From Actinotalea sp. Marseille-Q4924 (GTDB lineage Bacteria; Actinomycetota; Actinomycetes; Actinomycetales; Cellulomonadaceae): 64,000 bases of DNA. A program made the translations under genes and the position numbers. The stretch is from assembly GCF_916618755.1 (NCBI RefSeq), contig NZ_CAKAKB010000003.1, positions 124,001 to 188,000 on the forward strand, in the 5' to 3' direction. A model generated the notes under the pieces. That model did no database searches. It was not told the origin of the DNA and saw only the letters and a list, made by a program, of their open reading frames with translations. This document shows positions 27,010 through 54,572 of the stretch, one piece after another (the stretch's first letter is position 1; each line of letters opens with the position of its first letter).

Positions 27010-27096
27010 GGCGGCTCCTTCCGTGCGTCGCGAGAGACGTGCGGAGTGCCCAGTATCACCCCATAACGCCGCTTTCGTCGGCCTGCGGAGGTGACA

Positions 27097-27110
27097 TGTT
27101 GCCGGTAACA
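27097..27110. promoter_or_regulatory. LacI-type operator, copy 1
   Basis: TGTTGCCGGTAACA, 12 of 14 bases palindromic, in the intergenic region between the LacI gene and the secreted hydrolase; same outer half-sites (TGTT...AACA) as copy 2. Confidence 0.65.
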
Positions 27111-27128
27111 GGTTTTGATTTGCGCGCG

Positions 27129-27142
27129 TGTTGTCGACAACA
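27129..27142. promoter_or_regulatory. LacI-type operator, copy 2
   Basis: TGTTGTCGACAACA is a perfect 14-bp palindrome centred 32 bp (about three helical turns) from copy 1, so both could bind on the same DNA face. Confidence 0.7.
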
Positions 27143-27297
27143 TCGACGCATGCAGATGGTGATGAATTAAATGCTAGAGTTCGGCGGCGTCAAGAAAGCA
27201 GAGGCCGTGCTTTCCCCGCAAATCGGACAAAACCTTGAGCAATGACATGCGGGGAATTACGACATTGCGATTCTACCGAACCGACCGAAGGGTGAAC

Positions 27298-29595: not shown

Positions 29596-29609
29596 CACCA
29601 CACAGGGAC

Positions 29610-29633
29610 GCCCCCGGTCGATGGGTCGGGGGC
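29610..29633 (+). terminator. Rho-independent terminator
   Basis: GCCCCCG...CGGGGGC, a 7-bp stem with 10-nt loop followed by TTT, 15 bp after the secreted hydrolase stop. Confidence 0.8.
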
Positions 29634-29999
29634 TTTCCCTTGCCCGGCTGTACCCATGGTCTGCTGCCTCAGGCCGATGGGGCGGTGACAGTGTTGTCAG
29701 ACCCGACTCGCCTCGGTTCGATGCGTCCCTCGGGGTGCCTCGGCATCCTCGGCGTACGTCTGGGCACCCCGGCCGTGGACGTCGCGGCGGTGGCCGACGG
29801 TCGAGCGATGTAGCGGTGATCAGGATCGAGTTACACAGGCCTTGCCCTGGCCAGCCCGCCGAGCTCGCACCGGTGCGACGGAACCGCCGTCGGAGCCGGC
29901 TACAGGGGAGGGTTGAGCGGCCCTCGGGGTGGGCACGACCCTGTCAGGGTGCGAGACCCGGCCCGTCAGCGGAGCCTGTGCGCTGAGCTGAGCGACTGG
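29634..29999. other. Non-coding spacer with no recognised gene
   Basis: About 366 bp between the terminator and the next minus-strand gene. The open frames here have poor codon bias and no family resemblance. No RNA gene or repeat was recognised. Confidence 0.5.
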
Positions 30000-30263
30000 T
30001 CAGGGGCACAGTGCGAACCCGACGACGGACACCGGGTTGTGCACCCGTTCGAAGGCGAAAAGGCCTGGGGTGCCCTTGTGGACCTGCGAGTGGAACGAGG
30101 GAGGGTCGTGCGCCTCGCCGGTGCCGAATCCGACACCCGCCTTGTCCACGCACGCGCCGGGAGTGTCGATGATGTGGGAGTGGTCGGCAGACGCCGGCCC
30201 AGCCACAGCGAGAGTCAAGAGGGCTGCTGCACCTGCAGTCGCGAGAAGGCGCGAGACGTTCAT
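30000..30263 (-). CDS. Small secreted protein of unknown function
   Basis: An 87-aa exported protein. Signal peptide: MNVSRLLATAGAAALLTLAVAGPASADHSH. The mature part contains ACVDKAGVGFGTGEAHDPPSFHSQVHKG and ends in GFALCP, so two cysteines may pair, and several histidines (HSHI, AHDPPSFHSQVH) could bind metal. No family is recognised. GGAGG lies 5 nt upstream of the ATG. Confidence 0.78.
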   Translation of the reverse strand: MNVSRLLATAGAAALLTLAVAGPASADHSHIIDTPGACVDKAGVGFGTGEAHDPPSFHSQVHKGTPGLFAFERVHNPVSVVGFALCP

Positions 30264-30501
30264 GTCATCCTCCGGATGAGGCCGATCGAGTTGGTGGCAC
30301 GCAGGGCCGACGGCGCTGAACGAGGCGACGACGCCTGAACCGCGCACTTTCGCAGTGCGCATCGCCGGCTGCACGCTGCGCAGAATCAGCACGATGGACC
30401 GGGTCACGGGGGACGCCGTTGTCCTCGATCGATCCTGCTCCTCGTACGCATGCAGCGCAACACTCGCGGCGTCCGACGTCGGGCACCGTCGAGGCGACGG
30501 T

Positions 30502-30782
30502 TCACATCTCCAGCACGACGTCGGCCTGCTGCTGGTAGGTGTTCAGCTCGTCGGCCGCCTCGGTCGTGTCCCAGCGGGTCCGTGACAGCGCAGGGACGAG
30601 CCGGTACCGCCCGGTCGGCAGGGGACCGGACGGGACGAGGAGGGCCCGTAGCCGTTCTGCATCATCGTCACCGGTACGTCGATCTCGACCTCGACCGTCG
30701 GTCGGCACCAGACGCCGAGGAGGATGGCCAGCTCTGCGGAGAGCAGCAGGACGCCACCCAACCACGACGGGCTGGCAAGCAT
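30502..30782 (-). pseudogene. Frameshifted gene for a small membrane or secreted protein
   Basis: Two protein-like halves lie in different frames. The first runs from the ATG at 30782: MLASPSWLGGVLLLSAELAILLGVW (a membrane or signal helix), then VEVEIDVPVTMMQNGYG. After about position 30645 the natural-looking sequence continues in another frame as LLVPSGPLPTGRYRLVPALSRTRW and ends QQADVVLEM. A single-base indel near 30640-30650 would join them into about 93 residues. It is either a decayed gene or a sequencing error. No family is recognised. Confidence 0.5.
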
Positions 30783-30919
30783 CCTGCGAACTCGACCGGC
30801 TCGCGCGTGCCCGGCCTCGGCGTCCGGTCGGCTCTCAGCGCACACGAAGGGCCGCCACCCCCGGCGAGAGGGATGACGGCCTTCAGGGCGTGCCCACCTT
30901 GCGGCGGTCACAGCGTGCG

Positions 30920-31284
30920 TGGAGGTGGCGGGAATCGAACCCGCGTCCGGCGGCAGTGAAACAGGGCTTCTCCGGGTGCAGTCTGCTGACGATTTTCTCG
31001 GCCCCAGCGATCACGCAGACATGTCGCTGACGGGCCCAGTCATCTGAGTGTCGCGGCAGCCCCGATGACGAGGGCTACAGCCAGTGGCTTCCTAGATGAC
31101 GCCAGGAACTGAGACGGAAGCTAGCTCAGGCTGACGGACTCCGGGACTCGCTCAGGCGGCGAGTGCGAAGTCGGTGCGCTTGGAATCGGCACCTATTGGT
31201 TTGCATGGATCGTTGACGAGATGACCATGCATCCTCGACCCGCTTCCCCTGGATCGACGACCGTCGTCGAAACCGATCACCCCC
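30920..31284 (-). ncRNA. ssrA: Transfer-messenger RNA (tmRNA)
   Basis: The 5' end GGGGGTGATCGGTTTCGACG and the 3' end, with the TTCGATTCCCGCC T-arm followed by CACCTCC-A, pair as a 7-bp tRNA-like acceptor stem. The CCA is not encoded. The tag reading frame at 31152-31190 encodes ADSKRTDFALAA and a stop, typical of actinobacterial tmRNA. It acts with SmpB (encoded about 5 kb away) to rescue stalled ribosomes and mark products for ClpXP and related proteases. Confidence 0.96.
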
Positions 31285-44164: not shown

Positions 44165-44519
44165 TCAGGCCCCCTGCCCGCGCAGGAGCGCGACGACGTC
44201 GCACCCCGTGCGCTCGAAGCGCTCGGGATGGGGCGGGAACCCGTCGGCGCGGACCAGCGCGCCGGCTCGTCGGTGGAAGACATCGCTCGTCTCCACCACA
44301 CCGTTCTCGACCCGACCGGGCACCGCGACGATCTCGCGCGTGCGCCGACGGCCCGAGGAGTCCAGGTCGAGGTGGACGACCAGGTCGATGGCGGCCGCGA
44401 CCGTCGGGACGACGAACTGCGCGGAGACGTTCTCACCGGCGAGCAGCGGCAGCGTGCACAGCTTGGTGAGCGCCTCCCGCGCGCTGTTGGCGTGGAGCGT
44501 GCACATGCCCGGCACGCCG
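44165..44519 (-). pseudogene. tadA: tadA/cpaF pilus ATPase, 3' part (separated by the integrated element)
   Basis: This encodes the last 118 or so residues of the TadA/CpaF ATPase: GVPGMCTLHANSAREALTKLCTLPLLAGENVSAQFVVPTVAAAIDLVVHLDLDSSG and the C terminus. The conserved histidine box LHANS is here, while the Walker A and B motifs are in the 5' part at 53672-54572. A Met codon inside the element (44536) could start a short chimeric peptide, but without the ATP site. Joining with the 5' part restores one open frame of 415 codons including the stop. Confidence 0.92.
44509..44519. repeat. attL: Attachment-site core, left copy (attL)
   Basis: CCGGCACGCCG, identical to the right copy. The sequence inside the element next to it (AAGCCTACGA then ATGGCACA at 44530-44537) is one half of the reconstructed attP. 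Confidence 0.88.
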
Positions 44520-44537
44520 AAGCCTACGAATGGCACA

Positions 44538-44570
44538 TGAGCAGCCGGGAGTGCCCGGCCTACTCCTCCC
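44538..44570. repeat. Element-specific repeat, copy 1 (TGAGCAGCCGGG...CTACTCCTCCC)
   Basis: Begins TGAGCAGCCGGG, has a small CCGGG...CCCGG hairpin and ends ACTCCTCCC. Copies 2 and 3 (46048, 47583) share the same start and end. This copy abuts the attP arm. Confidence 0.65.
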
Positions 44571-44601
44571 TGGCCGAACCCGACCCGCCAGGAGGCTCAC
44601 G

Positions 44602-46050
44602 ATGACCACCGCACCGCACCGACGCGCCGCCCTCTACCTGCGCCTCTCGGAGAAGTCCGAGGAGTCGACGTCGATCGACCGGCAGGAGGCTGACCTCCGC
44701 CACCACGCCGAGCGCGAGGGCTGGGAGATCGCTGAGGTGCTCGTCGACGAAGGGATTTCCGGCCGCCGCTCACGCGAGCGCGCCGATCGCGCCGTCGCCA
44801 TGCTCCGCTCGGGAGAGGTCGACGTCCTGGCCGTCTGGAAGTTCGATCGGTTCTCGCGCCAGGGTCTCGGCGCGCTCGGCCGCCTCATTGAGGCGCTCGA
44901 CGAGCGGCCCGCGGCGCGCTTCGTCGCCCTGAAGGACGGCCTCTCGTCCGACGCCCCCGCGTGGCGGATCGTCGCGTCTGTCCTCGCCGAGGTCGCCCGC
45001 ATGGAAGCCGAGAACACCTCGACGCGCGTCTCTTCGTCCGTTGCTGCACTCCGCCGGGCGGGCCGTTTCGCGGGCGGTACGCCGCCGATCGGCTACACGT
45101 CGACCCCGGCGCCCGACGGCCCCGGGCGCGTCCTCGTGCCGGACCCCGTCGCGGCGCCCGTGCTGCGTGAGGCAGCCGAGCGAATCGTGGCGGGGGAGTC
45201 GGCGTACTCGGTGACGCAGAGTCTCAACGCCTCCGGCGTCCGCCCGCCTCGCGCGAAGTCGTGGAGCGTCCAGGCGCTCACTCAGGCCCTCGCGGGCCAC
45301 GCGATCGTCGGGCGCGTGAAGGTGAAGGGCGAGATCCTCACCGACGCGGACGGCGTCCCGCTCCAGGTCTGGGAGCCGGTCCTCCCGCTCGACGTCTGGC
45401 GCACGGTCGGCGCCACGCTTCGGGCGCGGAAGGCGAAGCGCGCGCCCGTCGGCCAGCGCGCCTCGTCGCGCTCGCGGCTCCTCTCTGGCGTCGCTTCCTG
45501 CGCGGCGTGCGGCGGTCCGCTCTACGTCCGCCCCGGCGGTGAGGCCCGAGCGACGGTCTACGCCTGCGGTGCCCGCTCGAACGGGCGCCCGTGCCCCGGG
45601 ACCGCCGTCACGGCGGAGCGCCTCGAAGAGCACGTCGCGAGCGCGTTCCTCGGGCTCTTCGGCTCATGGGCCGTCACAGCGCCGCGTGAGGTCGAGGCGC
45701 CCACGCTCGCGCTAGCAGAGGTCGAGGAGGCGATCGCGGCGACGACGGACGCCATGCGCGTGCGAGGCGCCGACCGCGCGGTCCTCCTGGCGCGCCTTGA
45801 CGCGCTCGACGCCCGCCGCGAGGTCCTTGTCGCCTCGGCGGCTCGTCCCGCCGAGGTTGAGTACGTCGACACGGGGGAGACGATGCGGGAGGTCTGGGAC
45901 CGCGGCGACACGCTCGCGCGCCGCGACCTCCTCACGTCGGCGATCGAGTACGTCGCCGTGTCGAAGGGCAAGCGGGGCGCCCACGGCCTGGACCCGGCGC
46001 GCGTTGAGATCGGCTGGCGCTTCGACGAGGTGGCAGCAGAGGCGGCGTGA
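44602..46050 (+). CDS. Large serine recombinase (integrase)
   Basis: A 482-aa serine integrase. The resolvase catalytic domain (residues about 8-150) has the active serine in YLRLSEKSEESTSIDRQ (Ser16) and the KFDRFSRQGLGALGRLIEAL helix. The recombinase domain follows (GGTPPIGYTSTP...SAYSVTQSLNASGVRPPRAKSW). A zinc ribbon has SCAACGGPLYVRPGG and YACGARSNGRPCPG. A coiled coil and C-terminal tail end it. It would catalyse integration and, with a directionality factor, excision at the tadA site. A strong AGGAGG at 44590-44595 sets the ATG. It sits at the left element end, as integrases usually do. Confidence 0.94.
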   Translation: MTTAPHRRAALYLRLSEKSEESTSIDRQEADLRHHAEREGWEIAEVLVDEGISGRRSRERADRAVAMLRSGEVDVLAVWKFDRFSRQGLGALGRLIEALDERPAARFVALKDGLSSDAPAWRIVASVLAEVARMEAENTSTRVSSSVAALRRAGRFAGGTPPIGYTSTPAPDGPGRVLVPDPVAAPVLREAAERIVAGESAYSVTQSLNASGVRPPRAKSWSVQALTQALAGHAIVGRVKVKGEILTDADGVPLQVWEPVLPLDVWRTVGATLRARKAKRAPVGQRASSRSRLLSGVASCAACGGPLYVRPGGEARATVYACGARSNGRPCPGTAVTAERLEEHVASAFLGLFGSWAVTAPREVEAPTLALAEVEEAIAATTDAMRVRGADRAVLLARLDALDARREVLVASAARPAEVEYVDTGETMREVWDRGDTLARRDLLTSAIEYVAVSKGKRGAHGLDPARVEIGWRFDEVAAEAA

Positions 46051-46071
46051 GCAGCCCGGCACACTCCTCCC
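46048..46071. repeat. Element-specific repeat, copy 2
   Basis: TGAGCAGCCCGGC...ACACTCCTCCC, overlapping the integrase stop codon; a shorter version of copies 1 and 3. Confidence 0.6.
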
Positions 46072-46123
46072 ATGGGACAAGAAGCGGCGTCGTCGCTTCT
46101 CCGAGGGGTCTGGAGGTGCTGCC

Positions 46124-46309
46124 GTGCGTTCGTGCGTCGTGTGCTCTGAGCCCTTCCCAGACGGCCGCCGTCCGCACGCTCTGACGTGCTCGGACCGCTG
46201 CCGCCACCGCCGCGCGTGGCTGCGCCGCCGGGACCTCCTCGACGCCGGGCGCGCTGCGCTCGGCCACTGGTCTCCAGGCCGCCCCGGAGGTGTGCGTGCC
46301 TCGTCCTAG
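46124..46309 (+). CDS. Small zinc-ribbon protein 1
   Basis: A 61-aa protein with GTG start and GGAGG 7 nt upstream. CVVCSEPFPDGRRPHALTCSDRCRHRRAWLRRR has the spacing CxxC...CxxxC of a treble-clef/zinc-ribbon knuckle followed by an Arg-rich helix, suggesting nucleic-acid binding. Related small proteins lie at 48018 and 50915 in the same element. Function unknown. Confidence 0.7.
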   Translation: MRSCVVCSEPFPDGRRPHALTCSDRCRHRRAWLRRRDLLDAGRAALGHWSPGRPGGVRASS

Positions 46310-46427
46310 CGGGCGGGGCGGCCTGATCTATACCCGGCCGCTTCAGCAACGGCCGATGAGTGCGCGTGTTGCTCCTGGCTTCGCACGCACGCCCCGCCGT
46401 GTCGCCTCAGGAGGGACACGGCGGCGC

Positions 46428-46471
46428 GGCCGGTCCGTCGTCGCTCTCTGGAAGGCGTCGACGGACCGGCC
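46428..46471. other. Long perfect hairpin in the spacer before the capsid gene
   Basis: GGCCGGTCCGTCG and its exact complement make a 13-bp stem with an 18-nt loop. A second, 6-bp hairpin (GGCTCC...GGAGCC) is at 46479-46501. The 385-bp spacer 46310-46694 has no convincing gene. The hairpin may end the integrase transcript, or be a structured RNA or packaging signal. Confidence 0.55.
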
Positions 46472-46694
46472 CGCGTAGGGCTCCTGGCAAGGCCCGGAGC
46501 CTCCTTCCCGCCAGCCCTCATCCCGTCCGCGCCAGGCGCGCGAGACGGCCCCTCTGCATGCCCTAGGGGCACTCCCGCGGCCAGGCGCCGCCCGAGCACG
46601 CCCGCCGCGAAGCCGCGGAACTCCACTCACTCATCCCCGCCGGACCCGAGAGCACCCTCTCGGCGCCCCGGCCCTCCTCACAGGAGTTCCCCTC

Positions 46695-47564
46695 ATGGTT
46701 AACGCCCTTCTCACCTCCGACAAGATCGCCTCGGTCGCCGCCGCCCTCGTCGGCCAGGACCTCGGCCTCGCTGGGCTGGTCTATCGCGACGTCGACCGCG
46801 ACCTCGGCGACGGCTCCGGCGACACCGTCAAGGTCCGCGTCCCCGGCGCCCTGGCCTCCCAGACCCGCGGCGTTCGCTCCCTCGACCCGCTGATCCGCGG
46901 CGAGATCCGCGAGCAGCACATCGCCGTGACCCTCACGGACGAGGTCTACGACCAGATCCCGCTCGCCCGCGGCACGCTCGACCTGGACCTCGTCGATTTC
47001 TCGAAGCAGATCCTCGTCCCGCAGGCCTCTGCGATCGTCCGACACATCGAGCGGACCGTCGCCGCAGCGATGAGCGCCACGCCGGAGACCACCACGATCA
47101 CCTACGACCCGGCTGCCCCCGCGAAGACCTTCACGCAGATCCGTAAGGCCCTGCGCGACAACGGCGTGACCGCCGAGACTCCGCTCCTGGCGGCCGTCGG
47201 CTCCAGCGTCTACGGCGACCTCCTGGACGCCGAGGCCCTGGACGGCGACACGGTCCGCGGCTTCCGCGTCTACGAGTCGACCCGCCTCGCCGCCGAGGAG
47301 ATCGTCGGCTTCGTCGAGCAGGCCTTCGCCCTGGCCGTGCGCGCGCCGATCGCCCCCGAGGGCGCCCCGTACAGCGCCAGCGTGAAGGAGGGCGGCTTCG
47401 CCCTGACCCACGTCCGCGCGTTCGATCCCACGATCGGCGCCGACACGTCCCTCGTGTCGACCCTCATCGGCTGCCGGGCGATGCCCCTCGCGGTCGACAA
47501 CGAGGACGGCACCGTCACCCTCACGCCCCACGCGGGCGCCGTGCGCGTGGTGACCGCCGCCTGA
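46695..47564 (+). CDS. Phage major capsid protein (P22-coat/HK97-fold type)
   Basis: A 289-aa protein of the P22 coat (gp5)/HK97 superfamily. The family pattern is visible: SDKIASVAAALVGQDLGLAGLVYRDVDRDLGDGSGDTVKVRVPG near the N terminus, EQHIAVTLTDEVYDQIPLARGTLDLDLVDFSKQILVPQASAIVRHIERTVAAAM (the spine helix) and the C-terminal GGFALTHVRAFDPTIGADTSLVSTLIG. It is the only recognisable structural gene in the element. No separate scaffold or protease gene is seen. AGGAG precedes the ATG. Confidence 0.88.
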   Translation: MVNALLTSDKIASVAAALVGQDLGLAGLVYRDVDRDLGDGSGDTVKVRVPGALASQTRGVRSLDPLIRGEIREQHIAVTLTDEVYDQIPLARGTLDLDLVDFSKQILVPQASAIVRHIERTVAAAMSATPETTTITYDPAAPAKTFTQIRKALRDNGVTAETPLLAAVGSSVYGDLLDAEALDGDTVRGFRVYESTRLAAEEIVGFVEQAFALAVRAPIAPEGAPYSASVKEGGFALTHVRAFDPTIGADTSLVSTLIGCRAMPLAVDNEDGTVTLTPHAGAVRVVTAA

Positions 47565-47582
47565 GGTTCCCCGACCTCGGAG

Positions 47583-47616
47583 TGAGCAGCCGGGCTAGCC
47601 CCGGCCCACTCCACCC
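47583..47616. repeat. Element-specific repeat, copy 3
   Basis: TGAGCAGCCGGGCTAGCCCCGGC...CCACTCCACCC, 18 bp after the capsid stop. The GCCGGG/CCCGGC hairpin could act as a terminator. Confidence 0.6.
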
Positions 47617-47728
47617 CTGCCCAGAGGACAGCCGAGCCCGAGCGCCCGGCCCGCCCCCGTCTGCCTCCCCGGCGGGCGGGGGCTCTCTCTCGCATCAGCT
47701 CCGTTCCGCACACACGAGAGGCCACGCC

Positions 47729-48031
47729 ATGACCGCGTTCATCAGCCTGACCGAGAGCGAGCACGGCGACGTCCCCGTCGACTCCGGTCACCTCCTGATC
47801 GTCGACCCCTGCCACCTGCCGCCGGATCTCGTCGCCAGCCTCACCCGCCCGAACCGGCACGGCGTGACCGCCGCCGCCCTGGTCGCCACGCCGTCTGGTG
47901 ACGGCCTCTATCCGGTGATCGGCGAGCGCGGCGCCCTGGTCGTGCTCGACCCGCACCACGACGACACTGATCCGGCGTCGTGGGGCGACGGTCGGGCCTA
48001 CCGGGAGGTGGTGCTCGATGAGGTGCTCTGA
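47729..48031 (+). CDS. Hypothetical element protein (100 aa)
   Basis: A 100-aa protein: ISLTESEHGDVPVDSGHLLIVDPCHLPPDLVASL, then ALVATPSGDGLYPVIGERGALVVLDPHHDD. The DSGxLLIVDPC phrase recurs in uncharacterised phage- and bacteria-encoded proteins with DUF4241-like strands. Function unknown. It overlaps the start of the next gene by 14 bp, so the two may be translationally coupled. Confidence 0.65.
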   Translation: MTAFISLTESEHGDVPVDSGHLLIVDPCHLPPDLVASLTRPNRHGVTAAALVATPSGDGLYPVIGERGALVVLDPHHDDTDPASWGDGRAYREVVLDEVL

Positions 48032-48185
48032 GTGCCGCGCACCCCTGCCCGCCGACGCGGACCCCCGCCGGGTGACGTGCTCGGCGACCTGCCGCTCGGC
48101 GCGCAAGCGACGCCGCGACGCCGAGGAGGTCGCCCACCTGCGCGCGGCCGTCGCCGCCAGGGGCGGTCCGCACCCCCGACAGTGA
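48018..48185 (+). CDS. Small zinc-ribbon protein 2
   Basis: A 55-aa protein: MRCSECRAPLPADADPRRVTCSATCRSARKRRRDAEE. It has CxxC then CxxxC and an Arg/Lys helix, like the protein at 46124. Starts with ATG and overlaps the upstream gene. It probably binds nucleic acid; role unknown. Confidence 0.65.
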   Translation: MRCSECRAPLPADADPRRVTCSATCRSARKRRRDAEEVAHLRAAVAARGGPHPRQ

Positions 48186-48366
48186 CGAAGTGACGCAAGT
48201 GATGGTCTTCTCAGTTCAGTTCTCAGCGCTCTCTCCCAGGGCCATGCACCCGATGCACCTTTGCACCCCGGTAGCCGCCTGACGTGGGAGAACGTGAGCC
48301 GGCCAATTCCGCCGGCTGCACCCACGAGGGCCAGAACTGCACCCCTGAGCGCTAGAACTGCACCAC
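48182..48366. other. Non-coding region with repeated TGCACC and GTGACG motifs
   Basis: This lies in the 302-bp gene-free gap 48186-48487. TGCACC occurs six times (48245, 48254, 48262, 48317, 48338, 48359), two of them within an 11-bp direct repeat AGAACTGCACC (48333, 48354). AAGTGACG-like octamers repeat at the left edge. The cluster resembles iterons or a multi-site operator and precedes the 317-aa orphan gene. Confidence 0.5.
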
Positions 48367-48487
48367 CTACTTAAAGACGCCGGGGAGGCTCCGCCTCCTG
48401 GCCCGGCCGGAGGCCGCTAGACCCTCCGAAGCCTCGCCCCGCATGCCCGCCCTCCCGGGCACCGCCCGCACCCCAGGAGACCCCACC

Positions 48488-49441
48488 ATGCCCGGACTCA
48501 CGCCCGCCGAAGAGGCGATTCGCCTCAACGAAGCCCGCGCCGCCCTGGCCGCCGACCGCGGCGAGCCCGCCCCGGCCCCGTGGCCCGTCCCGCACCCCGG
48601 CGGCCTCCTCGCCTGGGCCGACACCCCCACGTCCGGCCCCGGCCCGTTGCCGCCCCTGGAGACCCGCCGCACCCGCCGCGGAACCCACGGCCCGGACCAC
48701 CTCGGCTGGCCCGTCGGCCTCCTGCCCGGCGCCCTCATCGCCGCCGACCTGACCGCCCGCGGCCTCGCGTTCGCTCGCGGCGCCGGGTACACCCTCCACG
48801 GCGATCGGATCTCCGTCGACCAGGCCGCCCGCATGGTCGCCGACGTCCTGGACGCCGCCGCCTTCCTCCTGCCCGACCCCCGCCTCGCCGCCCTGCGTCA
48901 GATCCGCGCCGTGCTCGGCGAGGAGAGCATGGCCGCTCGCCTGCGAGCCTGCGATGACGGCGACCGCGGCGAGATACCCGACGGCGTCGAGTTCCTCACT
49001 TGGGCGCGCGCCCTGGACACCTCCGGCCCGATGCGCGCGGCAACCGCCCTCGCCCTGGCCGACGCCACCGACGCCGACCGCGCCGAGGACACCCGCGAGA
49101 CCGCCGCCGAGCGCGTCGCCCTGCGCCACGCCCTGCGGGCCACCGCCCAGGAGATCCGCGTCTCGGCCGCCGCGCGCCGTGGCGTGGTGGACCTCGTCCG
49201 CCCGCACCTCCGCCCGGCGACTCGGCCGGTCGACGCCACGGCCGCCGATGCCTTCCTCGCCCGCTTCGACGCCGAGACCACTCTCCGGCGCTCCGCCCTC
49301 GCCCCCGCCTACGCCGAAGCGGGCTCACCCGGCGCTCTGACGAAGACCGCCCTCCTGGCCGCCGCCGACGCCCGCTGGGGCACCCCCGCGCGCCTGCACG
49401 GCCACGTCACCTACCGCCCGGCCCGGACGGTCCGGCCATGA
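48488..49441 (+). CDS. Orphan element protein, possibly replication- or DNA-related
   Basis: A 317-aa Ala/Arg-rich protein with no signal or membrane helix. Parts look helical (PAEEAIRLNEARAALAADRG, ARMVADVLDAAAFLLPDPRLAALRQIRAVLG). The end (AYAEAGSPGALTKTALLAAADARWGTPARLHGHVTYR) vaguely recalls the DNA-binding tails of phage primases, but I cannot assign a family. It follows the repeat-rich region and leads a run of overlapping small genes, so a regulatory or replication role is possible. Confidence 0.6.
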   Translation: MPGLTPAEEAIRLNEARAALAADRGEPAPAPWPVPHPGGLLAWADTPTSGPGPLPPLETRRTRRGTHGPDHLGWPVGLLPGALIAADLTARGLAFARGAGYTLHGDRISVDQAARMVADVLDAAAFLLPDPRLAALRQIRAVLGEESMAARLRACDDGDRGEIPDGVEFLTWARALDTSGPMRAATALALADATDADRAEDTRETAAERVALRHALRATAQEIRVSAAARRGVVDLVRPHLRPATRPVDATAADAFLARFDAETTLRRSALAPAYAEAGSPGALTKTALLAAADARWGTPARLHGHVTYRPARTVRP

Positions 49442-49560
49442 CCACCGCGGCTCTCCTGGCGCGCCTGGCGGTCCTGGAGGCCCGCCTTGACCGCGCTCTC
49501 GCCCGCCCACCCCAGCCCACGACCGGAGGCCGCCCATGCCCGCCCACGGCCACCGCCTAA
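49438..49560 (+). CDS. Small element protein (40 aa)
   Basis: A 40-aa peptide (MTTAALLARLAVLEARLDRALARPPQPTTGG...) starting with ATGA inside the previous stop. The N-terminal half could form a short coiled coil. Expression is plausible from the overlap only. Function unknown. Confidence 0.4.
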   Translation: MTTAALLARLAVLEARLDRALARPPQPTTGGRPCPPTATA

Positions 49561-49805
49561 CCCTCGACGGCGTCCAGCGCTACCACTCCGACCCGCTCTT
49601 CGACCGCCCGCGCCCGCCGCCCCGAATCCTCCCGGCGCCGCTGGCCCGCGGCGTCGCCGAGCGCCGCGCCGACGTCGCCGCCCGGCGTCGCCTCTCGACC
49701 ATCTGGGACGACCCCGCCCATGCCACCGAGAAGGCCGATCTCCTGGCCCGCCTGAGCCGCCCCACCTGGCCCCGCTACCGCCCGCATGCAGAGAGGACCG
49801 ACTGA
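49536..49805 (+). CDS. Hypothetical element protein (89 aa)
   Basis: An 89-aa basic protein, MPAHGHRLTLDGVQRYHSDPLFDRPRPPPRILPAPLARGVAERRADVAARRRLSTIWDDP. Overlaps both neighbours by a few bases. Size and charge are those of phage excisionases/RDFs, but there is no motif to prove it. Confidence 0.55.
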   Translation: MPAHGHRLTLDGVQRYHSDPLFDRPRPPPRILPAPLARGVAERRADVAARRRLSTIWDDPAHATEKADLLARLSRPTWPRYRPHAERTD

Positions 49806-49978
49806 TGGAGCGCAACCGCTATGGCAACTGTCCGCCTCGGCGCCCGAACCTCGACGGCCCGCGAGCACGCCGCACCGCGGCCTATCGCTCGCCCTACGAC
49901 GTCCCCCGCGGCACCCGCCCAGGCCGGATCCGCACACGCCCGCACACCCCCGCCCGCATCGAAGGAGACCCCCGATGA
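49805..49978 (+). CDS. Small Arg/Pro-rich element protein (57 aa)
   Basis: A 57-aa peptide (MERNRYGNCPPRRPNLDGPRARRTAAY...) starting in the TGATG overlap with the gene before and ending in an ATGA overlap with the next. Highly basic. Function unknown. Confidence 0.45.
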   Translation: MERNRYGNCPPRRPNLDGPRARRTAAYRSPYDVPRGTRPGRIRTRPHTPARIEGDPR

Positions 49979-50262
49979 TCCTCGACCCCGTCAACCACAC
50001 CACCGCCCCCGCCTCGGCGGCCTTCCTGGAGACCGTGCGAGTGAAGTGCCCGGCCCTGAGCGGGTACGCCGACGCCGACCTCCTGGCGCTCGCCGGGGGG
50101 ATCGCCACCCTCGGCTACGGCGGCGCGCACGCGGACGTCTGGAGCATTGGCCGCGAACTCGGGATGAGCGACCACGACTTCGGCGTCCTCGCCCGCGAGA
50201 CGTTCGTGACGCTCTACCCGGTCGGAGCCGTCTCGCTCCCGGACGCGCCGTCAGGCTCCTAG
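49975..50262 (+). CDS. Hypothetical element protein (95 aa)
   Basis: A 95-aa acidic helical protein with an HTH-like layout (CPALSGYADADLLALAGGIATLGYGGAHADVWSIGRELGMSDHDFGVLARETF). Good ribosome site (GAAGGAGA). A DNA-binding or regulatory role is only a guess. It converges on the minus-strand membrane protein gene with a 4-bp overlap. Confidence 0.6.
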   Translation: MILDPVNHTTAPASAAFLETVRVKCPALSGYADADLLALAGGIATLGYGGAHADVWSIGRELGMSDHDFGVLARETFVTLYPVGAVSLPDAPSGS

Positions 50263-50735
50263 CAGAACGCCTGCGCGAGCAGCGCCAGCACGGCGAAGAT
50301 CGCACCGGCGATGACGTACCCCGTCGCCGCTTGCGCGTCTTCGTCGTGCTTGACGACCCGCGCCTCCAACGCCGCCCTTGCCGCCTCAAGGTCCGCGAGC
50401 CGCCGCGCGTGCTCCAGGTCCGTTTCGGCCAGGCGGTCAAGTTCCTTCCGCGTCGCCTGTATGTACCCGCGAAGGGCCTCGGCGAGGTGACTCGGCAGGG
50501 CGTAGCCGGAGGCCTCGCCAACTGCCGCGACGCTCCCGGCCGCGCTGCCGACGTGGACGGTCACCGAACGGTTGACGCCTAGTCTCGCGAGCGCTCGCCG
50601 GAGCGACGTCGAGAGCCACCGTCGAGCGCCGGTCCCGCCCTGCCGCACGCTCTCGCGGATCGCACCCAGCGCGAGCGCATTCGCGGCGACTGAGAGCACT
50701 GTGAAGACCACAGCGACCACCGTGTGCCATTCCAC
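50259..50735 (-). CDS. Two-TM coiled-coil membrane protein of the element
   Basis: A 158-aa protein with an N-terminal helix (TVVAVVFTVLSVAANALALGAI), a central helical part (QATRKELDRLAETDLEHARRLADLEAARAALEARVVKHDEDA) and a C-terminal helix (TGYVIAGAIFAVLALLAQAF). The GTG start is inferred from the hydrophobic start. Among the element genes before 51.7 kb it alone runs on the minus strand, so it is probably a separately expressed accessory gene, for example for exclusion or host interaction. Confidence 0.6.
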   Translation of the reverse strand: MEWHTVVAVVFTVLSVAANALALGAIRESVRQGGTGARRWLSTSLRRALARLGVNRSVTVHVGSAAGSVAAVGEASGYALPSHLAEALRGYIQATRKELDRLAETDLEHARRLADLEAARAALEARVVKHDEDAQAATGYVIAGAIFAVLALLAQAFC

Positions 50736-50914
50736 TCGCTGACGGTATCGACCCACGCGCCCTCCGCGACGTGCACCGCACACCGGTCAACCCTGGGGGC
50801 CTGCCCCCTCCCCGGGGGTGACCTCCGGCCCGAGACGGCATAGCGCCCGGCCATGCGTACCGGCATGCCGCTGGTCTTCCCCCATTTTCGCCCCACCCCG
50901 AGAGGAGGCCCTGC

Positions 50915-51106
50915 ATGGCCTCGACCACCTGCGGCGAGTGCTGTCGGCGCTCCGTCTCGACGAGCGCCAGCACGTTCCCGTACTGCGGCACCCGCTGCGA
51001 GGAGGAGGCCGCCGAGCGCCGCGCCCGCCTGGCGCCGCTGACCGCCGACGGCGCCGCCGTCCCCGACCCTCGCCCGCGCCGCGCGGGCACGCTGAGAGGT
51101 TTCTGA
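50915..51106 (+). CDS. Small zinc-ribbon protein 3
   Basis: A 63-aa protein: TTCGECCRRSVSTSASTFPYCGTRCEEEAAERRARLAPL. The CxxC...CxxxC spacing matches the proteins at 46124 and 48018, with a charged helix after it. GAGAGGAGG precedes the ATG. It directly precedes the small-terminase-like gene. Confidence 0.68.
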   Translation: MASTTCGECCRRSVSTSASTFPYCGTRCEEEAAERRARLAPLTADGAAVPDPRPRRAGTLRGF

Positions 51107-51108
51107 CG

Positions 51109-51516
51109 ATGACCGACACCGCCACCCCGACCGGCGACGTTCTCGACGGCTGGAGCCTGCCGAAGGACTGGACCCAGGGCGCCTGCGACGTGTTCGCCGA
51201 GGTCCTGACCCAGCGCCCGGACCTCGCGGGCTCCGACCTCGCCTCGCTGGAGCACGCCTCCGCGCTCACCTCGGCGGCCGAGCGCCTCGACGCCGTCGCG
51301 CTCGCCGCTGGCATGGTCTCGACCGGCTCCACCGGGCAGACCGTCGTCCACCCGGCCGCCGTCGAGGCGCGCCTCGCCCGAACCGCCGCGGCACAGATTC
51401 TCGCCCGCCTGGCGCCGCCGTCGCCGTCCCACCGCCAGACCGCCAGCGAGCGGGGCCGCGCCGCCGCTCGCGCTCGCTGGGGCGGCTCCGGCTCCGTCCC
51501 GATCGGCCGCCGATGA
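51109..51516 (+). CDS. Small-terminase-like protein (P27 type)
   Basis: A 135-aa protein with WTQGACDVFAEVLTQRPDLAGSDLASLEHASALTSAAERLDAVALAAGMVSTGSTGQTVVHPAAVEARLARTAAAQILARLAP. This order (helix, acidic 'D..SL' turn, 'A..LD', GxxxxG, 'hP...E.R') resembles P27-family phage small terminase subunits. No large terminase is in the element, as in satellites that redirect a helper phage's packaging motor. The assignment is by pattern only; the C terminus (SERGRAAARARWG) is a common phage-protein tail. Confidence 0.5.
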   Translation: MTDTATPTGDVLDGWSLPKDWTQGACDVFAEVLTQRPDLAGSDLASLEHASALTSAAERLDAVALAAGMVSTGSTGQTVVHPAAVEARLARTAAAQILARLAPPSPSHRQTASERGRAAARARWGGSGSVPIGRR

Positions 51517-51746
51517 CGCGCCGCCCGGCCGTCGTCCGGCGCCCCACGGCCGACGCGGCGACGGTCCGCGCGCTCCCGGCGCTCGACGTCCCTCCGGGCG
51601 ACCTCCGCGCCGCCTTCGACGTCGTCCGCGCTCACCCCGTCGTCGTCGAGGCCGCCCAGCACGCCCGCTCGCTCAACGAGCGCGAGACCCTCGCCGCTGC
51701 GCGCGCGTCGCTCGTCCGGCGCTCGTTGGCCGCCGCGAGCCGCTAG
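51513..51746 (+). CDS. Small element protein after the terminase-like gene (77 aa)
   Basis: A 77-aa Arg/Ala-rich protein starting in an ATGA overlap with the terminase-like gene. Predicted mostly helical (DLRAAFDVVRAHPVVVEAAQHARSLNERETLAAARASLVRRSLA). No family recognised; could assist the terminase-like protein. Confidence 0.55.
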   Translation: MTRRPAVVRRPTADAATVRALPALDVPPGDLRAAFDVVRAHPVVVEAAQHARSLNERETLAAARASLVRRSLAAASR

Positions 51747-51916
51747 GCCTTTCCGGCGTCGCCGGGCGCCGCCGACGGCGCGTCGCGCCACCACTCGCCG
51801 TGCTCGGGGCAGATCCGGACAGACGTGTGCCCGGTATCCGTGATCGACCGCTCGTCCGCGGGGGAGACCCACACGCGCGTCCTACGCCCACACCAGCACT
51901 TCACGTCCTCGGACAC
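51743..51916 (-). CDS. Small zinc-ribbon-like protein 4 (57 aa)
   Basis: A 57-aa protein read from a GTG at 51914-51916, with GGAGG 7 nt upstream. It begins VSEDVKCWCGRRTRVWVSPADE and ends with RICPEHGEWWRDAP. CxC and CPEH could form a zinc site. Function unknown. It overlaps the 3' end of the plus-strand gene by 4 bp. Confidence 0.55.
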   Translation of the reverse strand: MSEDVKCWCGRRTRVWVSPADERSITDTGHTSVRICPEHGEWWRDAPSAAPGDAGKA

Positions 51917-51934
51917 TGTCGCTCCTCCGCTCCT

Positions 51935-51971
51935 GGCCCCTGGCCTCGCCCTTGTCGGCGGGGCCAGGGCC
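51935..51971. terminator. Imperfect hairpin between element genes
   Basis: GGCCCCTGGCCTCGCC pairs with GGCGGGGCCAGGGCC with a single mismatch and one bulge, around a 6-nt loop. It follows the stop of the 264-aa gene on the minus strand. Confidence 0.55.
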
Positions 51972-51991
51972 TTCCGTCTTTACCCCGCGGC

Positions 51992-52786
51992 TCAGGCCTC
52001 GGGCCGGTCCTCGACCACGACGCCGCCGAAGTCGACGACCCGGCCGCCTACCTCCGTCACCTGGAAGACGAGGAGCCGCCCGCGCGCGGGGTAGCGGATC
52101 ACGGCCCCGCTCGCCGAGTGCGGCTTCCCGTTGTCGCCTCGGCGCCAGCGGAGACGACCGAGCACGCCCGCGCCGTCCGAGACGGTCCAACCGCGTTCGT
52201 CCTCCTCGACGACGAGGACGTCGTCGATGCGGACGGCCGCGACTCGCTCGCTCGGCTCCGGTCGCTTCGCGAGCCCCCACACGGGCGGCGTGCCCGCCGC
52301 GTAGAGCACCTCGGCGAGCGGAAGCCGCCGCCCGCGCACGACGAGGCCGTCGTCTCCAGTCGAGATCACCTGGACCGGCCGCACGGCGAGCCCGTCGGCG
52401 ATCGGCGCTCCCTCGCCGAGCCAGGCAACGATCTCCGCGGGCCACGGGAGCGAGAGTCGCACGGCAGGCGCGCCCTGCACCGTCTCGACGACCCCTGACA
52501 CGACAACGTAGAGCCCGCGTGCGGCGATCTCGCGGAGCGCCCTCCGCATCTCTTCGCCGCCGCCGTTCACCCATCCCACGCGCCGCCCGTCCGCATGAAC
52601 CGCGACGGCACCGGACCAGTCGCGCGGCGGCTCGTCCGGGCTCAGCGCCATCGCTACGGCCGTCCCGACGGGGAGGCGTGGTGCCGATGCCTCACCTCCC
52701 TGGACGAGCCGCTCCATCCCTCCGGCGAACCTGACCGGCGCTGGCCGCGGTGCGGGCGTCGCTGCACGCCGCGAGAAGAGACCCAT
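51992..52786 (-). CDS. Orphan element protein (264 aa), possible HIRAN-like part
   Basis: A 264-aa beta-rich protein without signal. WSGAVAVHADGRRVGWVNGGGEEMRRALREIAARGLYVVVSGVVE resembles the HIRAN DNA-binding fold loosely ('.aV..dG..vG.v'). The C-terminal half has alternating strands (AAVRIDDVLVVEEDERGWTVSDGAGVLG). No family can be assigned. It is divided from the DUF4145 gene by a strong terminator. Confidence 0.6.
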   Translation of the reverse strand: MGLFSRRAATPAPRPAPVRFAGGMERLVQGGEASAPRLPVGTAVAMALSPDEPPRDWSGAVAVHADGRRVGWVNGGGEEMRRALREIAARGLYVVVSGVVETVQGAPAVRLSLPWPAEIVAWLGEGAPIADGLAVRPVQVISTGDDGLVVRGRRLPLAEVLYAAGTPPVWGLAKRPEPSERVAAVRIDDVLVVEEDERGWTVSDGAGVLGRLRWRRGDNGKPHSASGAVIRYPARGRLLVFQVTEVGGRVVDFGGVVVEDRPEA

Positions 52787-52868
52787 CCCTAAAGTCTGCC
52801 GCGTCAGCCGACGTCGCCAGCGTCCCGACTCACCGGGCGCCGCGCCGCGCGCGAGCACCGGCCAAGAC

Positions 52869-52905
52869 AGAGCCCCGCCCCTCCCGACCGGAGGAGCGGG
52901 GCTCT
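52869..52905. terminator. Strong bidirectional terminator
   Basis: A 16-bp stem with one mismatch (AGAGCCCCGC.CCTCC / GGAGGAGCGGGGCTCT) and a 5-nt loop, lying between the DUF4145 gene's 3' end and the 264-aa gene's 5' end. Confidence 0.8.
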
Positions 52906-52980
52906 TCGTCGTTTACACGCCCTCTCAGACGCCCCGCGCCGCGAGCGCCACCACGCAGACTCTTTGCGCGCGGACTCTCC

Positions 52981-53622
52981 TCACTTCTCGGGTGAACTGT
53001 CTCGACGCTCGATTGCGGACCGCGCCCCTTCCGGAAGGGACTCAAAGAGCGCATCCACCGTTGCCGCCCGCACGATCACCTGCTCTACGATGAGGTTGGT
53101 CAACGCGAAGAGGGCCGGAATGAGTCGCTCATCTTCGCTGGCCTCGATCTGCCCCGGATGAACGCTGTTGTTGCCGATGACCCGGACGACGTCCATCGCG
53201 CGGGACACGTCGGGATTCAGCCCTCGCCGTGAGAGGCGGCCGATCTTGTCGTGAAGCGACCCTGCGCCCGGTTCTAGACCGTCGACGAGGACCTGGAGTG
53301 CGAGCCTGAGCAGCGCCGCCGCGCTGCGAGGGGACACGGCGGACACGTTCCGCGCCTCCTCGTATAGACGACGCACGTCGTCGGGCATCCCCTCCAGCGG
53401 GGCGGCGCCTAGACGCACTCCCACGGGGACGACCATCTGTTCCTCTGACCACATGCTCCAGGCATCGCAGTGACTGCACTGCGCCGCGTCGAACTGGCTC
53501 GTATCCGACAAGCCGCCGCTGGAGTTTCTCAGGTATACGTCCGACCAGTGCTGCGCTGCGAAGGCGTCGCACGTCGGGCAATTGAACGCCGTGGCGTGGA
53601 ACGCCGGAACCCGCTGAGACAT
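52981..53622 (-). CDS. DUF4145 domain protein
   Basis: A 213-aa protein. The N-terminal zinc finger (NCPTCDAFAAQHW...CSHCDAWSMW) is followed by the DUF4145 helical domain: PDDVRRLYEEARNVSAVSPRSAAALLRLALQVLVDGLEPGAGSLHDKIGRLSRRG, then NNSVHPG. DUF4145 occurs alone or fused to restriction-type enzymes and is common on mobile elements. Its place at the element's right end suggests a cargo or anti-phage role (inference). The tadA chimeric frame overlaps its start. Confidence 0.82.
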   Translation of the reverse strand: MSQRVPAFHATAFNCPTCDAFAAQHWSDVYLRNSSGGLSDTSQFDAAQCSHCDAWSMWSEEQMVVPVGVRLGAAPLEGMPDDVRRLYEEARNVSAVSPRSAAALLRLALQVLVDGLEPGAGSLHDKIGRLSRRGLNPDVSRAMDVVRVIGNNSVHPGQIEASEDERLIPALFALTNLIVEQVIVRAATVDALFESLPEGARSAIERRDSSPEK

Positions 53623-53654
53623 GTCCGCGATGGTACGGCGCACGTCTCGGCAGA

Positions 53655-53662
53655 TGTGCCAT
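53655..53662. other. attP arm, right end of the element
   Basis: TGTGCCAT, exact inverted partner of ATGGCACA at 44530-44537. In the circular element they flank the core at 9 and 10 nt. Confidence 0.75.
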
Positions 53663-53671
53663 CATCATGAT

Positions 53672-53682
53672 CCGGCACGCCG
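53672..53682. repeat. attR: Attachment-site core, right copy (attR)
   Basis: CCGGCACGCCG, identical to the left copy. In the uninterrupted tadA it encodes part of ALNAGVPGM. Confidence 0.88.
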
Positions 53683-54572
53683 GCGTTCAGGGCGATGAGC
53701 ATGTCGAGGCTCTCGGCCTCGCGGACCTCGCCGATGACGATCCGGCTGGGGCGCATCCGCAGCGCCTCCTTGACGAGCCGCCGCAGGGTGATCTCGCCCG
53801 CGCCCTCGAGGTTCGGCTGGCGGCACTGGAGCGCCACGACGTCGCGCGTCGGGACCTGCAGCTCGAAGACCTCCTCGCACGTGATGACGCGGTCGCGAGG
53901 CGGGATCGAGCCCGCCAACGCGTTCAGCGCGGTCGTCTTCCCCGCCTGCGTCGGTCCCGACACGAGGATGTTGAGCCCCGCGGCGACCGAGGCGTGGAGG
54001 AACCGGGCCGCGGCGGGGGTCAGCGAGCCGAGCGCGACGAGGTCCTCGAGCGTGGTGGCCCGCGCCACGAACTTGCGGATGTTGACGGCCCAGTGGCGGC
54101 GGGTCACGTCCGGGATGGCGACGTGGAGGCGTTCGCCGCCCGGCAGCGCCGCGTCGGCGAACGGGCTGGACAGGTCGAGACGGCGTCCGGACAGCCGAAG
54201 CATCCGCTCGACCAGGTCGCGGACCTGAGCCTCGGTCAGCAGTGTGGTCGTCAGCTCCGGCTGACCGCGACGGGCGACGAAGACCTGGCTCGGCTCATTG
54301 ATCCAGATCTCCTCGACCTCGTCGTCGTCGAGGTACTGCTGCAGCGGACCGAGGCCGCCGACGGCGTCCTGAACCGCCTTGCGCGTGCCGACCGGGTCCG
54401 CCAGGGGCGGCACGTCACCGCGCAGAGCACGCCGGTCGTAGTCGGACAGCACCGCGGTGACGAGGTCGCCGAGCGAGCGTGGATCCGTGAGCGGGTCGAT
54501 GCCGCGGCGGCGCACCAGCTCGCGCACCTCGTGCTCGACGAGCACGACCGCGTCCCCCTGCACGACAGTCAT
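53672..54572 (-). pseudogene. tadA: tadA/cpaF pilus ATPase, 5' part (separated by the integrated element)
   Basis: This encodes the first 300 residues of TadA/CpaF: GLGPLQQYLDDDEVEEIWINEPSQVFVARRG, the Walker A motif GPTQAGKTTALNALAG, the Asp/Glu box CEEVFELQ and Walker B RIVIGEVREAESLDMLIALNAG. The frame then runs 47 codons into the element and stops at 53529, giving a chimeric tail overlapping the DUF4145 gene. The His box is on the other side of the element. With the 3' part it makes a 414-aa ATPase, normal for the family. Confidence 0.93.

Follow-up and report, generated by a model that had tools for sequence, protein, structure and literature searches.

A probable family of cos-type phage satellites in actinobacteria that carry their own major capsid protein

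Within a 64,000-nucleotide stretch of the Actinotalea sp. Marseille-Q4924 genome (contig NZ_CAKAKB010000003.1, positions 124,001–188,000; hereafter the window), positions 44509–53682 hold an integrated element of 9,163 bp that interrupts the gene cpaF. We propose that this element is probably an integrated cos-type (cohesive-end-packaged) phage satellite belonging to a new actinobacterial family, whose own major capsid protein (MCP) replaces or poisons the shell of a helper phage, while the portal, the packaging motor and the tail are borrowed. The satellite nature of the elements is strongly supported by their gene content, which in the window comprises a serine integrase, attachment (att) repeats, an MCP of a satellite clade, a small terminase subunit (TerS), a predicted cos site upstream of TerS and a defence-family gene. 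A packaging signal and a TerS of helper-phage type are present, and the genes needed for a virion of its own were not detected. Ten relatives were found, giving 11 elements with the same plan.

The element is flanked by exact direct repeats of the 11-bp attachment core CCGGCACGCCG, on the left at 44509–44519, inside cpaF, and on the right at 53672–53682, and joining the flanks without the element gives a single open frame for a CpaF/TadA-type ATPase. Both repeats and the restored frame bear out the exactly bounded unit described in an initial annotation of this DNA, which had been made from the sequence letters. The insertion splits cpaF into 44168–44536 and 53683–54572, the larger fragment belonging to the T2SSE family (Pfam, E = 7.8e-33), and because of this split the Tad pilus ATPase of the host is probably inactive as long as the element stays inserted. 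At the same site, cpaF is uninterrupted in 14 of the 18 other genomes of the genus. Family searches of the element proteins covered all 17 with PHROGs, 16 of 17 with Pfam and 10 of 17 with NCBIfam. The integrase (482 amino acids (aa); 44602–46050, plus strand) contains Resolvase, Recombinase and Zn_ribbon_recom domains and matches phrog_95 with an E-value of 2.3e-87, in agreement with its earlier description as a large serine recombinase. Together, the integrase, the sharp att ends and the relatives in other sites point to mobile integration. Of 19 genomes of the genus examined, only the one that contains the window has the MCP, in a single copy, and no prophage version was seen in a sister strain; the idea that the unit is a decayed fragment of a prophage kept by sister strains is hence not supported. 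In another genome of the genus, an unrelated serine-integrase element of approximately 8.9 kb (locus L078, G007:C26:196500-209500) occupies the same cpaF position, and the profiles used here found no MCP, TerS, cos or gp6 (a conserved satellite protein, see below) in it.

The 289-aa protein encoded at 46695–47564 (plus strand) is, by homology, a phage capsid protein. Along its entire length it shares approximately 42% identity with MCPs annotated in Arthrobacter and Curtobacterium phages, and it matches phrog_283 (E = 2.5e-30), whereas Pfam and NCBIfam gave no genuine match; among 50,697 phage records 369 were matched, every one of them at less than 60% identity. When a profile of the MCP alignment A2 was compared with the PDB, the phage MCP 8zdh was retrieved with an E-value of 1.1e-55, against 0.0037 for an encapsulin. 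An encapsulin identity is ruled out because of the far better match to 8zdh and the identity to phage MCPs, and the phage-type capsid gene of the initial annotation stands. The predicted model (pLDDT 82.5, pTM 0.80) retains the whole fold, including the N-terminal helix, and the order of its elements is what we take to be that of the HK97 fold. In a tree of 38 MCPs, one branch parts the 11 satellite proteins from the 27 phage and prophage proteins (support 99/96; 98% of 200 bootstrap trees), with a program warning of long branches, L053 and L011 among them. The ratio of nonsynonymous to synonymous substitution rates (dN/dS) between satellite MCP genes is 0.24 for L051/L052, 0.21 for L007/L008, 0.38 for L010/L012, 0.37 for L007/L009 and 0.43 for the window element/L009. 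Satellite MCPs are 289–303 aa long and those of the near phages mostly 308–325 aa. One stretch of the alignment, 11 columns wide, is occupied in each of the 20 phage MCPs and almost empty in the 11 satellite MCPs (31 of the 38 rows compared; six distant ones and one duplicate were dropped beforehand), so that the satellite proteins are approximately 11 residues shorter there. In the predicted model, the shortening falls between helix 170–178 and strand 190–194, presumably in an A-domain loop by HK97 topology.

Packaging is addressed by two features that lie close together. TerS (135 aa; 51109–51516, plus strand) matches phrog_1496 (E = 3e-5) and has homologues in L009, L011, L012 and L051. Upstream of it, in the same layout as in phages, lies a predicted cos packaging site of the Arthrobacter/Curtobacterium siphophage type (50796–50858, plus strand), for which the cut is predicted between GGCAT and AGCG at 50841/50842. 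The initial annotation had named a P27-like small-terminase candidate, which agrees with these matches, and had overlooked the cos site alongside. The records of the phages Mysterium and Tbone end in GGCAT and start with AGCGCC, that of Barnstormer starts with AGCGCG, and a search with genome-end junctions and with the DNA upstream of phage TerS genes gave matches in several satellites. The sequence GCATAGCG is present within 900 bases upstream of TerS at nine of 14 phage or prophage loci and absent from five, one of which starts at its own TerS. A satellite-free profile of 75 bp was then built from 10 phage sites (eight of these loci, a near-duplicate being omitted, plus Mysterium and Tbone) and run with nhmmer on the 11 satellites and on ten controls, which were drawn from flanking DNA, the remainder of the window and the unrelated L078 element. 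Seven of the 11 elements gave E-values of 0.006 or below, compared with 8.5 for the best control: L008 (4.7e-10), L051 (1.1e-8), L020 (2e-7), L052 (7.4e-6), the window element (4.9e-4), L010 (5.4e-4) and L012 (0.006). With a 22-bp cos matrix, the window site scores 23.1, a value reached by none of 500 and none of 200 shuffles, and the maximum in the rest of the window (54.8 kb) is 6.7; the sites of L020, L051, L052 and L008 (0/200 shuffles each) and L009 (1/200) are also clear, and that of L010 is marginal (8/200). Downstream of the cut, the DNA of L052, L008 and L007, which have no clear TerS, is nearest to one phage group, L010 is so weakly and L020 does not fit; a difference between TerS-bearing and TerS-less satellites in this region is suggestive and was left unused as evidence.

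The relatives were recovered through gp6 and the capsid gene. The MCP as query led to L007 and L008, both in Curtobacterium, and to L009, an incomplete viral contig of 6.8 kb, and the MCP alignment gave L020 as well as matches in 13 of the 396 genomes of an order sample. Judged by the neighbouring genes, seven of the 13 carry satellites (G000, G063, G261, G272, G316, G326, G392) and four carry prophages with a large terminase subunit (TerL), portal and protease (G066, G342, G230, G346). G142 and G143 were placed in neither class; G143 has, by eye, large frames at the places expected for TerL and portal, though the profiles did not name these. The seven satellite-bearing genomes, together with L007, L008, L009 and L020, make up the set of 11. 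Two further scans of viral contigs with satellite MCP alignments yielded no new member, L079 being a weak partial match, and in a plasmid collection 4 of 72,556 records were matched, weakly. Profiles built on 18 phage loci, run on all 11 elements, detect the MCP in every one and TerL, portal, protease, tail terminator and major tail protein in none, and the same profiles find TerL, portal and protease in all four prophages as a positive control. In the window element these profiles found nothing but the MCP, and PHROGs, Pfam and NCBIfam gave no credible portal, TerL, protease, scaffold or tail, as the initial annotation had supposed; the nearest names are noise. Among them, the DUF4145 protein described below drew GpA_ATPase at E = 0.073, and the protein at 50259–50738 drew a minor tail family at E = 0.027. 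A scaffold is encoded in three elements (L008, L010, L012), an adaptor in six (L009, L010, L011, L012, L020 and, weakly, L053) and a stopper in one (L009), and a scaffold and/or adaptor accompanies the MCP in seven of the 11. PHROGs agrees for the adaptor (L009, L010), head closure (L009) and scaffold (L010). A TerS profile from four satellites also detects L009 (E = 3.8e-29) as well as phage TerS of L026, L035, L036, L037 (E = 1.4e-10) and L055, i.e. five of the eight phage loci tried; in L052 a phage TerS is matched weakly (E = 2.3e-4), and tblastn gave no TerS match in the phage collection of 50,697 records.

The elements are of similar size, namely 9163 bp in the window element, 9418 bp in L010, 8730 bp in L012, 8798 bp in L020, 9076 bp in L051 and 9274 bp in L052, and approximately 9048 bp in L011, 9054 bp in L053 and 8947 bp in L008 (the offset of an imperfect repeat). 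For these nine, in which both ends could be placed, the mean is 9056 bp with a standard deviation of 217; L007, whose ends could not be fixed, and the incomplete L009 fall outside this set. At least five different insertion sites are used across the family: the same place in cpaF (window, L020), another place in cpaF (L053), tadC (L011) and, presumably, dprA (L051, L052) and a radical-SAM gene (L010, L012).

Candidate helpers are siphophages of the Mysterium (39,951 bp), Tbone (Yangvirus; 44,111 bp) and Barnstormer (46,860 bp) types. These share the MCP family with the satellites, their adaptor, stopper and scaffold are homologous to those of some relatives, and Mysterium and Tbone have the same cos core. 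Unlike the satellites, they are complete phages of 40–47 kb that possess portal, TerL and tail, and their MCPs fall outside the satellite clade. A helper-type TerL was found in none of the seven satellite-bearing genomes searched, compared with all four prophage-bearing controls (the Curtobacterium and viral-contig members stand outside this count), which indicates that a helper would come from outside and that the elements, judged from these genomes, are not pieces of a resident helper-type prophage. We hypothesize that, upon infection by a helper siphophage whose head type and cos core agree with those of the element, the integrase would excise the element, which would then form cos-bearing concatemers. 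The satellite TerS, or the helper TerS in TerS-less relatives, would guide the TerL of the helper to the cos of the satellite. Around the portal and scaffold of the helper, the satellite MCP would replace the helper MCP or mix with it, so that the resulting small shells would hold approximately 9 kb instead of 40–47 kb, and a helper tail would complete the particle. The satellite would in this way contribute chiefly the component that determines how large the shell is, with portal, motor and tail borrowed, and its defence gene would guard the host against rival phages.

How far the satellite MCP would take over the shell can be answered in two ways. Quite possibly, though we hold this tentatively, the satellite's own MCP lineage, maintained through long independent evolution, builds the entire small shell, and the portal, motor, protease and tail are taken from the helper; for a helper with triangulation number T=7, this could be a T=3 shell with one 9-kb genome or a T=4 shell with two. 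As arithmetic rather than evidence, the same packing density would give approximately 11–13 kb for T=3 and 17–20 kb for T=4, i.e. one or two units. If true, such a division of the virion between shell and portal would be a strategy standing between interference of the Ccm type and the complete heads of capsid-forming phage-inducible chromosomal islands (cf-PICIs). Alternatively, the MCP homologue could possibly join helper shells at some positions, for instance the pentamers, shifting assembly to small shells and blocking the helper without forming any shell alone. For this there is a precedent: in the accessible parts of the reports on SaPIbov5, a cos-type Staphylococcus aureus pathogenicity island (SaPI), its capsid-protein homologue Ccm is placed at the pentamers of T=4 shells and forms no capsids alone (PMC8569155, PMC5052747). 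Portal undetected in all 11 elements and scaffold undetected in eight favour such co-assembly with helper parts, and the common shortening in the loop that we assign to the A domain is consistent with it. However, in the predicted model of the window MCP the fold is complete, N-terminal helix included, and the protein is 35–45% identical to eight phage MCPs, whereas approximately 19% is given for Ccm and the helper capsid protein in the accessible text of PMC5052747. A scaffold and/or adaptor beside the MCP in seven of the 11 elements suggests a more complete head as the goal, and together with the closeness to phage MCPs and the N-terminal helix this favours shell building by the satellite protein.

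Three further explanations were weighed. Satellite DNA could enter full-size helper heads as multimers via cos, with the MCP playing a minor or competing part; a multimer of four to five 9.06-kb units would amount to 36–45 kb, and EcCICFT073, a cos satellite with a capsid-protein homologue, is said to use full-size heads in the accessible part of its description (PMC6092414). We consider this unlikely, as a selected, satellite-specific MCP clade would be left unexplained. That the elements are decayed prophage remnants which kept head genes by chance is very improbable: small size, missing modules, the interrupted MCP of L008 and the patchy distribution of scaffold, adaptor and TerS would be in keeping with decay, but one plan is shared by 11 elements at five or more sites, their MCPs form a clade apart from phages under dN/dS of 0.2–0.4, cos is retained, the att ends are sharp and gp6 is absent from 50,697 phage records. 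Scarcely credible is another use of the MCP shell, e.g. as a compartment like that of an encapsulin, a decoy antigen or a trigger of defence, with movement by integrase and other means, for although an encapsulin is weakly matched (E = 0.0037) and defence genes are common as cargo, phage MCP 8zdh fits far better (E = 1.1e-55), cos and TerS would have no role and six of the 11 elements encode head-tail adaptors.

Several observations weigh against the proposal of a cos-type satellite with its own shell protein. The satellite is known here from sequence alone, and its helper is guessed from homology because the host has no helper-type TerL. The TerS of Mysterium, Tbone and Barnstormer, the phages whose genome ends gave the clue to cos, is not detectably related to that of the satellites. 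On its own the cos profile is not significant for L009 (E = 0.19), L007 (0.19) and L011 (0.47), and no credible cos was found in L053, the best match being on the other strand (E = 1.3); with the 22-bp matrix L012 (31/200 shuffles), L011 (29/200), L007 (34/200) and L053 (54/200) are not significant, and in L011 another place scored slightly above the cos candidate. A clear TerS (five of 11), scaffold (three of 11) and adaptor (six of 11) are patchily distributed, and the MCP gene of L008 carries an in-frame stop. In the window element no replication gene was identified, and gp6 and most of the small genes are unassigned. Finally, the tight size of the family is weakened as proof of a packaging limit, since the unrelated 8.9-kb element of G007 shares the cpaF site without MCP or cos, and a size of approximately 9 kb alone proves nothing.

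SaPIs and phage-inducible chromosomal islands (PICIs) possess a tyrosine integrase, an Stl-type regulator and a pri-rep module. Of the features of cos-type members, a helper-type cos is present in the window element, as is a capsid-protein homologue, which may redirect assembly as Ccm does; its integrase is of the serine type, and no Stl or pri-rep module was identified. From what is accessible of its descriptions, SaPIbov5 resembles the present elements in its helper cos site, its capsid-protein homologue, its integration into the host and its size, a fraction of the helper genome (PMC5052747, PMC8569155). In contrast, SaPIbov5 is approximately 14 kb long, and the elements described here are approximately 9 kb long, with their own TerS beside cos and a scaffold, adaptor or stopper in some. 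The Gram-negative PICIs PmCI172 and EcCICFT073 also encode capsid-protein homologues, and EcCICFT073 is cos-packaged; according to the accessible part of the same source, they differ in host phylum and element family, being set apart by description, and EcCICFT073 is without TerS (PMC6092414). cf-PICIs encode MCP, portal, protease, both terminase subunits and an HNH protein and need only tails, as far as the available part of PMC10690885 describes them. The elements studied here share with them a satellite MCP and TerS, and some relatives also share head-tail connectors, but a cf-PICI identity was rejected, the MCP being the only member of the set of portal, TerL, protease and MCP found, in all 11 elements. 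The Streptomyces satellites MulchRoom and MiniFlayer are likewise actinobacterial and carry MCP and TerS; unlike the present family, with TerL and portal in none of 11, these 15–17 kb genomes possess TerL and portal together with scaffold, adapter and direct terminal repeats, and the integrase of MulchRoom is a tyrosine recombinase (PMC10690885, accessible part). An analysis of actinobacterial prophages considers that small elements may be satellites, and in its accessible part none like the present family is described (PMC10023795). Our literature search, which lay outside most subscription papers, likewise found no description of these elements. The suggestion of the initial annotation that they form an undescribed actinobacterial satellite class is supported by ten relatives, the cos site and the separate MCP clade, and qualified by the capsid-homologue satellites SaPIbov5, PmCI172 and EcCICFT073. 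The combination of capsid homologue and cos is known from other lineages; the present family differs in its integrase type, its gene set, its host phylum and its MCP clade.

If our proposal is correct, actinobacteria gain a cos-type satellite family that brings a replacement for the shell protein, for which named cultivable phages of the Tbone, Mysterium and Barnstormer types are helper candidates. A general question would become testable, namely whether capsid size can be reset by exchanging nothing but the shell protein in the presence of a foreign portal, motor and tail. The related staphylococcal strategy based on Ccm belongs to a different kind of element, so that convergence could be compared.

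A conserved satellite protein of the window element is gp6 (317 aa; 48488–49441, plus strand), with homologues of 36–41% identity in L009, L010, L011 and L012. It was seen solely in these five elements: matches occur in four of 396 genomes of the order, the own genome included, tblastn found none in 50,697 phage records, and Pfam, PHROGs and the PDB gave none. In a class sample, there was one match beyond the own genome (G501, E = 5.1e-4), with three internal stops. Alignment searches of Pfam, PHROGs and the PDB for a hidden portal, scaffold or replication protein in gp6 came back empty. Its predicted model reaches a pLDDT of just 70.9; the C-terminus may resemble the winged helix of phage primases, and a role of gp6 in replication or control is conceivable. 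Among the element proteins, neither a repressor nor a primase family rose above noise in Pfam, PHROGs or NCBIfam. In L020, a 519-aa protein encoded between integrase and MCP (L020:2581-4137) has a weak AAA ATPase match (E = 0.018) and is possibly an alternative replication gene.

The window element also holds three tiny CxxC zinc-finger-like proteins. The first (61 aa; 46124–46309, plus strand) has weak treble-clef/HNH-type matches and homologues in L010, L011, L012 and L053, the second (55 aa; 48018–48185, plus strand) has homologues in L010, L011 and L052, and each of these two matches homologues of the other in the relatives. The third (63 aa; 50915–51106, plus strand), with no family in Pfam or PHROGs, is an open reading frame (ORF) between cos and TerS. 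The remaining plus-strand ORFs are orphans of 100 aa (47729–48031; no family above noise in Pfam, PHROGs or NCBIfam), 40 aa (49438–49560; no PHROGs match), 89 aa (49536–49805; partly conserved in L010 and L012), 57 aa (49805–49978), 95 aa (49975–50262; conserved in L011 with 44%) and 77 aa (51513–51746). On the minus strand are encoded a probable membrane protein (159 aa; 50259–50738; hydrophobic N- and C-terminal segments by eye, no family above noise) and an orphan of 57 aa (51743–51916). Scanning the element for promoters, terminators and Rfam families gave no matches.

The right end appears to be a cargo region, with a 264-aa orphan (51992–52786, minus strand; no family above noise in Pfam, PHROGs, NCBIfam or PADLOC) and a PD-T7-4-like anti-phage defence protein with a DUF4145 domain (52981–53622, minus strand; PADLOC E = 3.5e-65, DUF4145 E = 5.6e-12). 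The PADLOC match is full-length, covering residues 5–209 of 213 and profile positions 6–208 of 211, and assigns the predicted product to the PD-T7-4 defence family. Among ten proteins of seven elements compared with PADLOC, clear defence-family matches were obtained in five elements: PD-T7-4 in the window element, TIR-TM in L010, PDC-M36A in L008, a type II restriction enzyme and methyltransferase in L051 and a methyltransferase in L052; L009 gave a weak match and L020 none. Because the elements carry exchangeable defence-family genes (PD-T7-4, TIR, restriction-modification), they may carry phage resistance between actinobacteria. L051 and L052, from two genera, share an insertion gene (dprA-like) and differ in their methyltransferase-type cargo.

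Elsewhere in the window, positions 27001–31284 are of lower G+C content (0.61–0.69) and adjoin a transfer-messenger RNA gene (30919–31284, minus strand), a stretch resembling what is possibly another integrated island.

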